Positions 3,843 through 16,898 of a stretch of DNA of 64,000 bases are shown one piece after another. Source of the stretch: Chloroflexota bacterium (GTDB taxonomy: Bacteria; Chloroflexota; UBA6077; FW602-bin22; JACPRP01); assembly GCA_023480885.1 (NCBI GenBank), contig JAMCWX010000046.1, forward strand, positions 62,001 to 126,000. Reading direction: 5' to 3'. A program made the translations under genes and the position numbers. Numbering within the stretch: position 1 is the first letter of the stretch; the number at the start of each line of letters is the position of its first letter. The notes under the pieces are model-generated. The model worked only from the letters and a program-made list of their open reading frames with translations. It searched no databases and was not told the DNA's origin.

Positions 3843-4385
3843 ATGGGAACGAACGGACTAGCAACGGCGCTAATGGAACAGGTCAACGCGCTCACTCTGG
3901 CTGAGAAACAGACCAGGGAGCTTATCAGCCAGGCACAAGCGGAATCGAACAGATTAGCCGAGAGACGCAACTACATCACTGGCCTGATTGGTCGCGCCGA
4001 CGAACTGAGCACTCGCTACCTGGAGATGATCGACACGGTAAACAAATGCTGCGCGACGGTGCGCGAGAAGCGTGACGTGCTCCAGGATGCCAGAGACCGG
4101 CTGGACAGGGCCAAGATCGAAGCGGTATTGCGCGAGACGCCAATCGAGAAAGGTGCACCTGGACGCATCAACGGCGCCAACGCAGAGATCCGCGCAATGC
4201 AGTCTGCACAAGTCGTTGATGAGGATATCAGCTATCAGAACTGCAAGGCAGAAGCGGAATTCTGCCAGCGCGACCTTGACCAGGCTGAGTTAGAGCAGCA
4301 AGCAGCATTGATGAAGGTATCGGCGCTCAAGGCCGTGACGAAGCTCTACACAGCAGAACTGGCCGTCATTGCGGAGTTGGAGTAG
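3843..4385 (+). CDS. hypothetical coiled-coil protein
   Basis: ORF with RBS. Confidence 0.65.
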   Translation: MGTNGLATALMEQVNALTLAEKQTRELISQAQAESNRLAERRNYITGLIGRADELSTRYLEMIDTVNKCCATVREKRDVLQDARDRLDRAKIEAVLRETPIEKGAPGRINGANAEIRAMQSAQVVDEDISYQNCKAEAEFCQRDLDQAELEQQAALMKVSALKAVTKLYTAELAVIAELE

Positions 4386-12463: not shown

Positions 12464-14680
12464 GTGGACGACTATAAGGCGTTTCTTGAATCGAAGAGGC
12501 TGGTTGTCAGGTCAACGGGGATTGATGTCTCCCTGGATGAGTTGAATGTTTCCGCAAAACCCCATCAAGTCGACTTGACGATGTGGGCACTTCGGAAGGG
12601 ACGCGCCGCGATTCTGGCCACAACGGGCATGGGTAAGACCCTGATGGAGTTGATGTTTGGTCAGCAGGCTGCGGAAAGGTCATTGATTCTTGCGCCCTTG
12701 GCCGTAGCGTACCAGACCGTCAGAGAGGGTGAGAAGTTTGGAATTGACGTGACCTATGCCCGAAATGAAAGCCAGGCTCCCCGTCAAGGAATAACGGTCA
12801 CGAACTACGAATTACTGGAACATTTCGACCCCGACAATTTCGGAGCCGTAATACTCGACGAATCCGGAATCCTGAAATCTTTTGAGGGGAAAACTAGAAC
12901 CGCACTGATTGAGAGATTCAGGTATACGCCTATGCGCCTTTGCTGTTCCGCAACGCCAGCTCCGAATGATATAGCCGAGATTGCTAACCACGCAGAGTTC
13001 TTAGGGATTATGACGCGAGTTGAGATGTTGGCGGCGTTCTTTGTCCATGATGACAAGGGTTGGAGATTGAAGGGCCATGCTCGTGAGCCGTTCTATCGGT
13101 GGTTGGCTTCTTGGGCGATGTCATTACAGAAACCAAGTGACTTGGGGTATTCGGATGATGGGTATATCCTGCCAGAGTTGACCATTGACCCCATCATCAT
13201 TCCCAGCGATTACGTGCCTGAGGGTCAGTTGTTCGCTATCTCACTCAAAGGCGTGTCGGACAGGGCTCGAGTCCGAAAAGCCACAATGATGCAACGAGTG
13301 CTGGTAGCGGCAGACCATATAAAAGCAGAGCCGAATGAGCAGTGGCTAGTCTGGGTTGGCTTGAATGATGAAGGGCGAGAGTTGGCGAAGATGATTCCAA
13401 GCTCAGTACTCGTGGAAGGTAGCCAGTCGCCTGACGAAAAAGCCGATGCGTTAACCAGATTCGCTAACGGCGAAATTAAGGTTCTTATCAGTAAGGTGTC
13501 TATCGCGGGGTTCGGAATGAATTTTCAGAGTTGCGCCAGAATGGTCTTCGTTGGGCTCGGTGACAGCTATGAACAGTATTTTCAAGCAATCCGGCGTTGC
13601 TGGCGTTTCGGTCAGAAGCGACCAGTCAAGGTTCACATTGTCCTAACCGACTTGGAGGAAACGATTTACGAGAATGTTTTACGGAAAGAGAAGGAAGCTG
13701 AAGCCACGGCGGCAGAGCTTGTCAAGCACGTGGCTGAGTTCGAGAAAGCCGAGATAAGCACGGTGGATAGGGGTAGTTTTATGTACGAAACGAAAGATGA
13801 GAGCGGGCAAGGCTGGCGCTTCATGCTGGGGGATAGTTCCGAGAGATTGCGAGAGTTGGAATCGCATAGCGTTGACCTATCTATTTTCAGTCCACCTTTC
13901 CTGAACCTATATACATATTCCAACACGGAGCGTGACTTAGGCAACAGTTCCACGACTAGACAGTTTTGGTCTCATTTTCGATTCATCATCAGGGAATTGG
14001 CTCAGCTGACAAAGCCAGGGCGTAATGTCTGCGTTCATGTCGCTCAAATCGCTAAGCAAAAGTCTAAGGATGGAGTGATTGGCTTGCGCGATTTCAGGGG
14101 TGAGACTGTCAGGCATTTTGAGCGAGCAGGGTTCGTGTTTCACGGAGAGGTGTGTATCGACAAAGACCCCCAAGCCGTTGCTATCCGCACTCACTCAAAG
14201 GGCTTGGCTTTCATTCAGCTTAGCAAGGATGCAAGTTGGATGCGTCCGACGATTGCAGACTATATCCTGGTCTTTCGTGCTCCCGGCGAAAATCAAGTGC
14301 CGATTCATCCAGATATCACCAACGATGAATGGATAGAGTGGGCCCGGCCAATCTGGTACGGAATCAAAGAGGGTGAAACATTGAATGCTTCTGAGGCTCG
14401 CAGTGATGACGATGAGCGTCACATTTGCCCACTTCAACTGGGCACCATTGAGCGCTGCATCAGGCTTTGGAGTAATCCGGGGGAGTTGATTCTTTCTCCC
14501 TTTGGCGGAATTGCGAGCGAAGGATACCAAGCCATTAAGTTGGGTCGTCGATTCATTGGCGTTGAGTTAAAACCTGAGTATTTCCAGGCGGGTCTCAAAA
14601 ATCTCCGTGAAGCCGAACGCCTAGCCAAGCAAGTTGATTTGTTTCAGTGGGCCGAGGGGGAATCGGAGGCGGTATCGTGA
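12464..14680 (+). CDS. SNF2/DEAD-type helicase fused to a DNA methyltransferase
   Basis: helicase: ATTGMGKTL, VILDESGILKSF, SATPAPND, FVGLGDSYEQYFQAIRRCWRFGQKRPV; MTase: DLSIFSPPF and GELILSPFGGIASEGYQAIKLGRRFIGVELKPEYF. Confidence 0.85.
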   Translation: MDDYKAFLESKRLVVRSTGIDVSLDELNVSAKPHQVDLTMWALRKGRAAILATTGMGKTLMELMFGQQAAERSLILAPLAVAYQTVREGEKFGIDVTYARNESQAPRQGITVTNYELLEHFDPDNFGAVILDESGILKSFEGKTRTALIERFRYTPMRLCCSATPAPNDIAEIANHAEFLGIMTRVEMLAAFFVHDDKGWRLKGHAREPFYRWLASWAMSLQKPSDLGYSDDGYILPELTIDPIIIPSDYVPEGQLFAISLKGVSDRARVRKATMMQRVLVAADHIKAEPNEQWLVWVGLNDEGRELAKMIPSSVLVEGSQSPDEKADALTRFANGEIKVLISKVSIAGFGMNFQSCARMVFVGLGDSYEQYFQAIRRCWRFGQKRPVKVHIVLTDLEETIYENVLRKEKEAEATAAELVKHVAEFEKAEISTVDRGSFMYETKDESGQGWRFMLGDSSERLRELESHSVDLSIFSPPFLNLYTYSNTERDLGNSSTTRQFWSHFRFIIRELAQLTKPGRNVCVHVAQIAKQKSKDGVIGLRDFRGETVRHFERAGFVFHGEVCIDKDPQAVAIRTHSKGLAFIQLSKDASWMRPTIADYILVFRAPGENQVPIHPDITNDEWIEWARPIWYGIKEGETLNASEARSDDDERHICPLQLGTIERCIRLWSNPGELILSPFGGIASEGYQAIKLGRRFIGVELKPEYFQAGLKNLREAERLAKQVDLFQWAEGESEAVS

Positions 14681-14696
14681 TCCGTAGGAGGTGTGT

Positions 14697-15806
14697 GTGA
14701 ATGTGGATACATGTTCCTTCGCAATTTTGTCCCTCAGTTCCGGAGCCGCCGGACTCGAAATCAGCCTTAGATTGGCGCTCCCAACTTCTCGCGTCGTCTG
14801 CTACGTTGAGCGCGATGCCTATGCCTGTGAAGTCTTGGCTTCGCGCATCGAAGACGAAAGCCTGGATGAAGCACCTATTTGGTCGGATTTACGAACCTTC
14901 GATGGCCGACCGTGGTGTGGAATCGTGGATATCCTCTCTGCAGGCTTCCCTTGCCAGCCTTGGAGTGCAGCGGGAAAGCGTCTCGGCACGATCGACGATC
15001 GATGGATTTGGGACGACATCGCTCGCATCGTTCGCGAGGTTGAGCCCGAATGGATCTTCCTGGAAAACGTACCCGGCCTTGTTCGGGGAGGGCTGGAACA
15101 CGTTCTCAGAGACCTGGCCCTATGCGGGTTCGATGCGGAATGGGATGTGTTTTCGGCGGCGCAAGTCGGCGCACCGCAGATTAGAGAACGGGTGTTCATC
15201 CTGGCCCACGCCAAAAGCAGGGGATTCGGGGTCGAACAAGAGCCTATCTCCCAACGCAACGGTACGTCCATCGTTACGCCGAATCAATTCGCTCTGGCCC
15301 ACACCAACGGGCATGGACAGCCACGGCAGTGGGGCATCCAAGAACTACCCCAGCAGGGGCAGGTCGCACGCAGGGATGACGCTGACCGATGCGACGGCGA
15401 GGGGCGCGATGTGGCCGACACCGAAATCATCGGACGCCGATCACGGAGGGCCGAACCAACGGGACAGCAAGGGCAAGATGGCGTTACCGGGGATGGCGAA
15501 CCACTGGCCCAGCCTGATGAGTGCGGATGCTTCGCGGGGGAGCGAGACGTTCAAACGAGGCAACCCGACACTCTTGGGCTGTTCCCGCCAGGCCCTTCCG
15601 AACTCGACGAGTGGCGGCGCGTCCTCGAGGTCGAGCCGAGTCTTGAACCCGCGATTTGTCGAATGGCTGATGGGCTGGCCCCTGGGTTGGTCAAATCCAG
15701 CCTTGCCTATCAAATCGATCAGCTTCGCGTCTTGGGAAATGGAGTCGTCCCATTGGTTGCGGCAGTTGCTTTTGCGGTTTTGTGGCAGCGACTTGTTACC
15801 GGTTGA
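14697..15806 (+). CDS. dcm: DNA (cytosine-5) methyltransferase
   Basis: LSLSSGAAGLEISL, AGFPCQPWSAAGKR, ENVPGLV, QIRERVFILAHA, LRVLGNGVVPLVAA; GTG start 5 nt after AGGAGG. Confidence 0.85.
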   Translation: MNVDTCSFAILSLSSGAAGLEISLRLALPTSRVVCYVERDAYACEVLASRIEDESLDEAPIWSDLRTFDGRPWCGIVDILSAGFPCQPWSAAGKRLGTIDDRWIWDDIARIVREVEPEWIFLENVPGLVRGGLEHVLRDLALCGFDAEWDVFSAAQVGAPQIRERVFILAHAKSRGFGVEQEPISQRNGTSIVTPNQFALAHTNGHGQPRQWGIQELPQQGQVARRDDADRCDGEGRDVADTEIIGRRSRRAEPTGQQGQDGVTGDGEPLAQPDECGCFAGERDVQTRQPDTLGLFPPGPSELDEWRRVLEVEPSLEPAICRMADGLAPGLVKSSLAYQIDQLRVLGNGVVPLVAAVAFAVLWQRLVTG

Positions 15807-15846
15807 TAGCGTGATTCAACCATTACTATCGGAGGCAATACCTTGA
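14701..15846 (+). CDS. overlapping full-length ORF (SSWKT / WPTP / LNPxFVEWLMGWPxGW family)
   Basis: 381 codons overlapping dcm in another frame; ATG 9 nt after the same AGGAGG; SSWKTYPALFGEGWNTFSETWPYAGSMRNGMCF, repeated WPTP, LNPRFVEWLMGWPLGWSN. Confidence 0.6.
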   Translation: MWIHVPSQFCPSVPEPPDSKSALDWRSQLLASSATLSAMPMPVKSWLRASKTKAWMKHLFGRIYEPSMADRGVESWISSLQASLASLGVQRESVSARSTIDGFGTTSLASFARLSPNGSSWKTYPALFGEGWNTFSETWPYAGSMRNGMCFRRRKSAHRRLENGCSSWPTPKAGDSGSNKSLSPNATVRPSLRRINSLWPTPTGMDSHGSGASKNYPSRGRSHAGMTLTDATARGAMWPTPKSSDADHGGPNQRDSKGKMALPGMANHWPSLMSADASRGSETFKRGNPTLLGCSRQALPNSTSGGASSRSSRVLNPRFVEWLMGWPLGWSNPALPIKSISFASWEMESSHWLRQLLLRFCGSDLLPVDSVIQPLLSEAIP

Positions 15847-16898
15847 CGCTCACAATCCCTTCAGAAATCCAACAAGCAATGTCACAAGGTGCTGCACTCG
15901 CTATCAGCATTTCAGGTGGCAAGGATTCGCAAGCAATGTTGAACGTTCTCGCAGCAGAGTACAAGCGTCAAAACTGGTCAGGGCCAATCTACGCCATTCA
16001 CGCGCACCTTGGCAGGGCGGAATGGCCGCAGACACTGGGGCACTGTGAGAAGATCACGAGGGATCTGGGCATTGAGCTGGTCGTCGTCTCCAGGCCCCAA
16101 GGCGACCTGGTGCAGGAAATTCACGATCGAATGGAGAAGGTCGCGGGCACCTACAAGCCGCATTGGCCCAGCGCCACGAACCGCTATTGTACTTCAGATC
16201 AAAAACGAGGGCAGATCGACAAAGTTATCCGAGTGCCGCACTGGCCTAGCTCGACCAGTCGCTATTGCACATCGCACCACAAGAGCAATCAGATCGACAA
16301 GGCGATTCGTTCACACTGGCCAAGTTCGACGCAGCGGTATTGCACAGCGGATCAGAAACGAGATCAGATAGTCAAGCAGCACCGTCAGCATCGCTTGGTC
16401 GTTGCGGCAATGGGGCTAAGGGCAGAGGAGAGCCCAGCTCGAGCGAAAAAGCAGGCCGCCTCTGTCTGTTCTAGAACGACGTCGACCGTATTGAAGGGAT
16501 TGCTCCCTGGCGAAGCTCTTGCCAAGCAGCAATCCAATCAACATCTAACCATCGACTGGCTGGCGATTCACGATTGGAAAGTTGATGATGTTTGGGATGC
16601 ATGCGGAACCGATAGAGATGCATTGGAGATACGCCGAGGGCTGTACAGGGAAGGGCTGAAACTCCGGTCGCTTGATGGCTGGCCTGCCCATCCCGCTTAC
16701 GTCTTCGGCAATGAGCGGCTGAGTTGCGCAATCTGCATACTCGCTTCGAAAAACGACATCATCAACGGCGCCAAGCACAATCCCGAACTGTATCGCGAGT
16801 ATGTTGCGATGGAGCGGGAGAGTGGGTTTACCTTTCGACATGGCTTCGCGCTGGAAAGTCTGGGGAGTGAATTAGAGTTAGCGGAGGTGCTATCTTGA
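15843..16898 (+). CDS. PAPS reductase/ATP-PPase-superfamily protein with triplicated Cys motif
   Basis: PP-loop ISGGKDSQAML; three tandem HWPS(A/S)TxRYCTxxxKxxQI(D/V)K units; LSCAICILASKNDI. Confidence 0.8.
   Translation: MTLTIPSEIQQAMSQGAALAISISGGKDSQAMLNVLAAEYKRQNWSGPIYAIHAHLGRAEWPQTLGHCEKITRDLGIELVVVSRPQGDLVQEIHDRMEKVAGTYKPHWPSATNRYCTSDQKRGQIDKVIRVPHWPSSTSRYCTSHHKSNQIDKAIRSHWPSSTQRYCTADQKRDQIVKQHRQHRLVVAAMGLRAEESPARAKKQAASVCSRTTSTVLKGLLPGEALAKQQSNQHLTIDWLAIHDWKVDDVWDACGTDRDALEIRRGLYREGLKLRSLDGWPAHPAYVFGNERLSCAICILASKNDIINGAKHNPELYREYVAMERESGFTFRHGFALESLGSELELAEVLS

Follow-up and report, generated by a model that had tools for sequence, protein, structure and literature searches.

Two overprinted reading frames of a prophage locus probably encode the catalytic and recognition subunits of one DNA (cytosine-5) methyltransferase

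The window analysed here, a stretch of 64,000 nucleotides from a Chloroflexota bacterium (contig JAMCWX010000046.1), contains a locus that we interpret, with a probability of roughly 0.86, as a two-subunit DNA (cytosine-5) methyltransferase (C5-MTase) whose subunits are overprinted in two frames of the same DNA, the alpha chain being catalytic and the beta chain carrying the recognition region and motif IX. Between them, the two predicted chains lack none of the C5-MTase motifs. The preliminary description of this DNA had noticed the two frames and was silent on the function of the second: this frame very probably holds the recognition region and the motif IX that are absent from the Dcm frame. 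That beta is translated on its own, that the two chains form a complex and that they are active is inferred, as are the target sequence and an anti-restriction role; there are no protein, translation or methylation data.

In the mechanism that we propose, alpha would provide the AdoMet-binding and catalytic domain (motifs I–VIII and X) without motif IX or a selected recognition domain, its middle part being a passive linker kept open only so that motif X stays attached. Beta would initiate 4 bases after the alpha start, from the same Shine-Dalgarno sequence and in the +1 frame, and would bring the WPTP repeats of the recognition region, together with motif IX. Once assembled, alpha and beta would form a single enzyme with sequence specificity, whose modification of the prophage DNA would probably counter restriction by the host. 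Phage C5-MTases commonly protect DNA from restriction, and this is the basis of the inferred role in prophage protection.

At the window, the alpha frame is open over 371 codons (GTG 14697 being the preferred start and GTG 14691 a possible one) and beta, in +1 relative to alpha, covers 381 codons, so that the frame lengths of about 370–381 codons given in the preliminary description hold and the two ORFs are nearly co-extensive (Table 1). It had also been proposed that one Shine-Dalgarno sequence serves both frames; the positions of AGGAGG and of the two start codons are correct, and its use by both alpha and beta can only be inferred. The SSWKT, WPTP and LNPRFVEWLMGWPLGW segments are all read in the +1 frame, with SSWKT lying over the ENVPGL of alpha, as first described. 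Positions 4000 to 63502 of the window correspond to an integrated myovirus-like prophage whose integrase adjoins a tRNA-Leu, and prophage genes in the window include those for a replication initiator, a DnaC-like protein, terminase, portal, tail sheath, baseplate J and integrase. The neighbours in the methyltransferase block are the helicase–N6/N4-methylase fusion, the PAPS-reductase-like protein and a radical SAM protein.

Table 1. Features of the overprinted methyltransferase locus and its neighbours (window positions).
Feature	Position	Strand	Evidence or remark
Upstream neighbour: helicase fused to N6/N4 DNA methylase	12464..14680	+	profile matches
Shine-Dalgarno AGGAGG	14686..14691	+	5 nt to GTG 14697, 9 nt to ATG 14701
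Alpha (Dcm/C5-cytosine MTase catalytic chain, putative)	14691..15806	+	PF00145 1.3e-33, phrog_363 4e-55, alignment A3
Beta (WPTP-repeat recognition region and motif IX, putative)	14701..15846, +1 frame	+	phrog_1008 2.2e-39, alignments A1/A2, omega
Alpha motif I ILSLSSGAAGL (AdoMet site)	14724..14756	+	read from sequence; G18 invariant, G21 near-invariant in A3
Alpha motif IV GFPCQP (catalytic Cys)	14943..14960	+	P87 C88 invariant
Alpha motif VI ENV	15063..15071	+	E125 N126 invariant; beta frame there = SSWKT
Alpha motif VIII QIRER	15177..15191	+	R165 R167 invariant
Beta WPTP repeats (recognition region)	15202..15642	+	800/232/184 substitutions, omega beta 0.20 vs alpha 1.1, in relatives
Beta motif IX LNPRFVEWLMGWPLGW	15643..15690	+	W322 M324 G325 P327 invariant in A2
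Alpha motif X VLGNGVVP	15729..15752	+	alignment of 39 alphas
Downstream neighbour: PAPS-reductase-like protein	15843..16898	+	4-nt overlap with beta end

The Dcm frame had been credited with the expected C5-MTase motifs, and this proved correct except for one of them. PF00145 covered residues 10–182 of alpha, i.e., roughly its first 180 residues, and phrog_363 was the match among the PHROGs. Motifs I–VIII and X were present, those tested (I, IV with PCQ, VI with ENV, VIII with QxRxR, and X) being all met, and motif IX was absent in an alignment of 39 alphas in which the other motifs appeared as invariant positions. Where beta has its WPTP repeats, alpha reads as a linker of the type "LAHTNG/VADTE.." without constraint. 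The low-complexity "LAHTNG/VADT" insert that recurs in these alphas can thus be explained as the unselected reading of the beta repeats.

No Pfam or NCBIfam model matched beta, and phrog_1008 aligned with its residues 73–331. The invariant core of beta (LNPxFVEWLMGWPxGW) sits at the place of motif IX in single-chain relatives, directly before motif X. Using hhalign, the LNPRFVEWLMGWPLGW region aligned with the motif IX position of these relatives (2.6e-10), and the beta profile aligned with them across the WPTP repeats and motif IX (5.8e-15), which are in frame there. The comparison of the beta motif IX with other phage Dcms alone was not significant (hhalign probability 1.8); the expected columns were paired in that alignment, LNPRFVEWLMGWPLGW of beta with RKLTPRECWRLQGFPDW of the phage Dcm. 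At the window, motif IX and the recognition region between motifs VIII and IX were found only in beta. The N-terminus of beta (MxWLYVP) is conserved ahead of motif I, with an omega of 0.44 for beta in that upstream region. The AlphaFold models of beta alone (pLDDT 58, without any match in the PDB) and of the single-chain relative L297 (pLDDT 48, repeats unmodelled, matching M.HhaI/HaeIII) were both poor, so that neither offers a structural test of motif IX. There was no C5-MTase structure among the matches of the beta profile, and a match to the MS2 coat protein (A1 positions 64–92, E 8e-4) was weak and judged to be due to chance.

Since no close relative of the window locus was found, omega could be obtained from relatives only, and the window itself was tested by synonymous shuffles. 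Its +1 frame contains a single stop, located upstream of ATG 14701, whereas alpha-synonymous shuffling predicts 4.7 (p about 0.01). When alpha was shuffled synonymously 1000 times and the +1 product evaluated against an HMM built on the remaining betas, the shuffles reached a mean of 121.7 bits (SD 15.6, maximum 175.9) against 324.6 bits for the beta of the window. The part of beta over motifs I–VIII alone scored 204.5 (shuffles 115.9, SD 11.2), and the reciprocal test of alpha gave 385.9 (shuffles mean 101.5, SD 19.7, maximum 166.7). Over 161 loci, we counted 25 beta-frame stops over motifs I–VIII for 343 expected and 76 alpha-frame stops in the middle region for 602 expected, with 768 stops in the third frame for 760 expected.

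Selection was analyzed in 49 independent pairs of related loci, in which substitutions were counted by alpha codon positions 1/2/3. We obtained 732/357/1636 substitutions over motifs I–VIII, 800/232/184 between motifs VIII and IX (the recognition region) and 305/154/343 over motifs IX–X. As alpha position 1 corresponds to beta position 3 (beta being +1), the constrained frame goes from alpha to beta and finally to both. A model including all three frames gave omega values for alpha/beta/third frame of 0.18/0.53/1.1 over motifs I–VIII, 1.1/0.20/1.1 in the middle and 0.37/0.41/1.1 over IX–X, the third frame being near neutral. In the flanking single-coding ORFs, the omega of the +1 frame was 0.80 (0.65–0.96). 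Compared with this control, beta exhibited clear constraint just before the repeats (0.41), within the repeats and over motif IX, and moderate constraint near its N-terminus (0.51); over the middle third of the motif I–VIII region its omega of 0.71 was not clearly under the control. The controls relied on were the third frame and these flanking genes. Streptococcus-phage Dcms, chosen as a negative control, proved to contain a selected +1 ORF of their own. In relatives, both frames are thus shown to stay open, to be conserved and to undergo purifying selection that differs from region to region. The middle part of alpha appears to be translated, yet its sequence is not selected, because the omega of alpha is 1.1 and stops are avoided there. 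Two observations had been named beforehand as refuting overprinting, namely homologues whose second frame is frequently interrupted by stops and constraint limited to the Dcm frame; neither was made.

It had also been asked whether homologues of the +1 protein, searched alone, always overlap dcm. The beta profile alone retrieved 160 loci (80 located on viral contigs and 80 in genomes), and alpha was encoded at 160/160 of them, nearly all overlapping beta in the same relative frame. In a set of 195 loci, all of which contain the N-terminal part of alpha (195/195), motif searches by regular expressions found, in 131 cases, motif X in frame 0 with motif IX in the +1 frame; in another 44, motif IX was likewise in the +1 frame but motif X was missed by the pattern, and the set included 5 AquI-like splits and 3 single chains. 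The hosts are Alphaproteobacteria, Pseudomonas, Acinetobacter, Planctomycetota, Myxococcus, Akkermansia and others. Around the host of the window, the arrangement was present in 3 of the 41 genomes searched (the host itself counted), a sparse occurrence consistent with that expected for a mobile element, and no beta matches were found in plasmids. The exact spacing of 4 nt from the alpha start codon to the beta ATG was recovered at 76 of 162 loci, 65 of these 76 with a Shine-Dalgarno-like motif upstream; this spacing partly follows from the fact that alpha proteins begin with MNV.

Several relatives depart from this architecture. In the single chains (L026, L031, and L284–L301), the repeats, motif IX and motif X share the frame of motifs I–VIII. 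In the AquI-like loci (L018, L030 [Peaches gp77/76], L032, L035, and L191), motifs I–VIII are in one ORF and the recognition region, IX and X in the next. Finally, a clade comprising L011, L012, L015, L146, L148, and L159 (L017 being similar) has 4–14 stops in the alpha middle, and its motif X part is kept as an ORF of ~90 residues whose ATG is conserved and preceded by a GAGGG/GAAGG-like sequence, an arrangement that suggests a putative three-piece enzyme.

The order of the motifs at the DNA level is the same at the window as in the single chains L026 and L284–L301, and one polypeptide could be produced there by two programmed frameshifts, from frame 0 (I–VIII) to +1 (recognition region and IX) and back to frame 0 (X). 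We consider this improbable, an obligatory double frameshift being disfavoured by stop avoidance in the alpha middle: frame 0 has 0 stops there in 147 loci for 506 expected, an openness that would be needless if this part were skipped. Beta also has its own conserved start and N-terminus ahead of motif I, the AquI-like relatives consist of two ORFs, and the known split C5-MTases, for which M.EcoHK31I and M.AquI are precedents, use separate chains (PMC3404938). Two separately initiated chains that assemble are therefore the simplest reading. We give little credence to the idea that beta is translated but does something else (regulating or inhibiting the methyltransferase, or something unrelated): activity data and a confident structure prediction for beta are lacking and a +1 ORF is also present in some apparently complete Dcms, but beta holds recognition repeats and a motif IX that are in frame in single-chain relatives, and alpha has no motif IX. 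The view that alpha is the sole gene, with the open +1 frame and its recurring patterns arising passively from Dcm motif conservation in a GC-rich sequence, can draw on the position of the beta SSWKT and SMRNGMCF over alpha motifs VI–VIII and on the part of the beta score that survives shuffling, but can practically be set aside, as it is rejected by the middle-region substitutions and omega values (alpha unconstrained and beta constrained between VIII and IX), by stop avoidance and by a beta score 13 SD above the shuffles, and as beta stays open in some loci with an interrupted alpha and the pattern also holds in Paenibacillus phage BN12.

Our preferred two-subunit reading can be compared with known systems. 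In M.EcoHK31I, a C5-MTase made of two polypeptides (YGGCCR), the gene of the large chain contains the small ORF in a different frame, and beta is likewise written in another frame of the alpha gene. As at the window, motifs I–VIII and X are in one chain, the large one, and motif IX is in the other (PMC3404938). The main difference concerns the recognition domain, which is assigned to the large chain in M.EcoHK31I and, from the omega values, to beta rather than alpha at the window. Moreover, unlike the small chain of M.EcoHK31I, beta matches alpha in length, begins 4 nt downstream of the alpha start and contains WPTP repeats. The two-polypeptide M.AquI (CYCGRG) is naturally split, as in the AquI-like relatives mentioned above; motif X is together with IX in the second chain in this type, whereas it is in alpha at the window, with a near-complete overlap. 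Among the PHROGs, phrog_1008 and phrog_16143 are +1-frame products and phrog_363 is alpha, the window matching phrog_1008 and phrog_363; the three are labelled "DNA methyltransferase," and the labels shown are silent on the overlap at the DNA level. Similarity to the window locus is also seen in BN12 (gp62/gp63, MG727695), in which both frames are annotated as DNA-cytosine methyltransferase and beta contains WGTP/WPTP units and LNPDWVECLMGFPIGW; unlike at the window, the BN12 beta starts ~200 nt inside alpha, with its own GGGAGG upstream. We found no prior description of such an arrangement in phages in the literature (open-licence papers only).

The preliminary description had hesitated between overprinting and misannotation. 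Overprinting is real, and it has led to misannotation in several records. The record of Synechococcus phage Ssp-JY39 contains beta only and that of Acidovorax phage Alfacinha3 lacks alpha and has the beta frame under the name "cytosine-specific methyltransferase"; both frames are listed for BN12. In the GenBank records PP438429.1 (L028) and OP131587.1 (L029), the beta frame alone is annotated and alpha is left out, with the cytosine-specific methyltransferase label in one case.

Related +1 ORFs were also observed in Dcms that are complete in one frame. The Dcms of Streptococcus and related phages (L204–L283, e.g., L204:452-874), complete in frame 0, contain over motifs III–VIII a conserved and nearly stop-free +1 ORF of ~140 codons (MTSQQYQMSLFEES...SLSDILEExVDEKYFLS), with a conserved ATG in most of them and GGAG upstream in many, whose products match phrog_16143 and, more weakly, phrog_1008. 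Past motif VIII, omega in these Dcms is 0.93 for frame 0 and 0.40 for the +1 frame. In the mycobacterial prophage Dcms (L284–L301), it is in the +1 frame that the first LLPTP repeat past motif VIII is found and selected (27/3/2 substitutions at codon positions 1/2/3), the later repeats being in frame 0. A tentative idea, which we hold at somewhat less than even odds, is that a +1-frame partner is general among phage C5-MTases, both groups having a +1 ORF that belongs to one family, is under selection and covers motifs III–VIII and the beginning of the recognition region. If true, many such enzymes would be two-component and some three-piece, and the overprinted chain would set or enable target specificity.

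Long and near-complete same-strand overlaps with both frames selected have rarely been demonstrated in bacteria or phages. Here, two halves of one enzyme would occupy the same DNA, the selected frame changing along the gene. As annotation often keeps one frame, recognition subunits go unnoticed, and a Dcm assayed as one protein alone could look inactive or mis-specified. The single-chain, AquI-like, fully overlapping and apparently three-piece relatives form a series in which the origin of overlapping genes may be studied.
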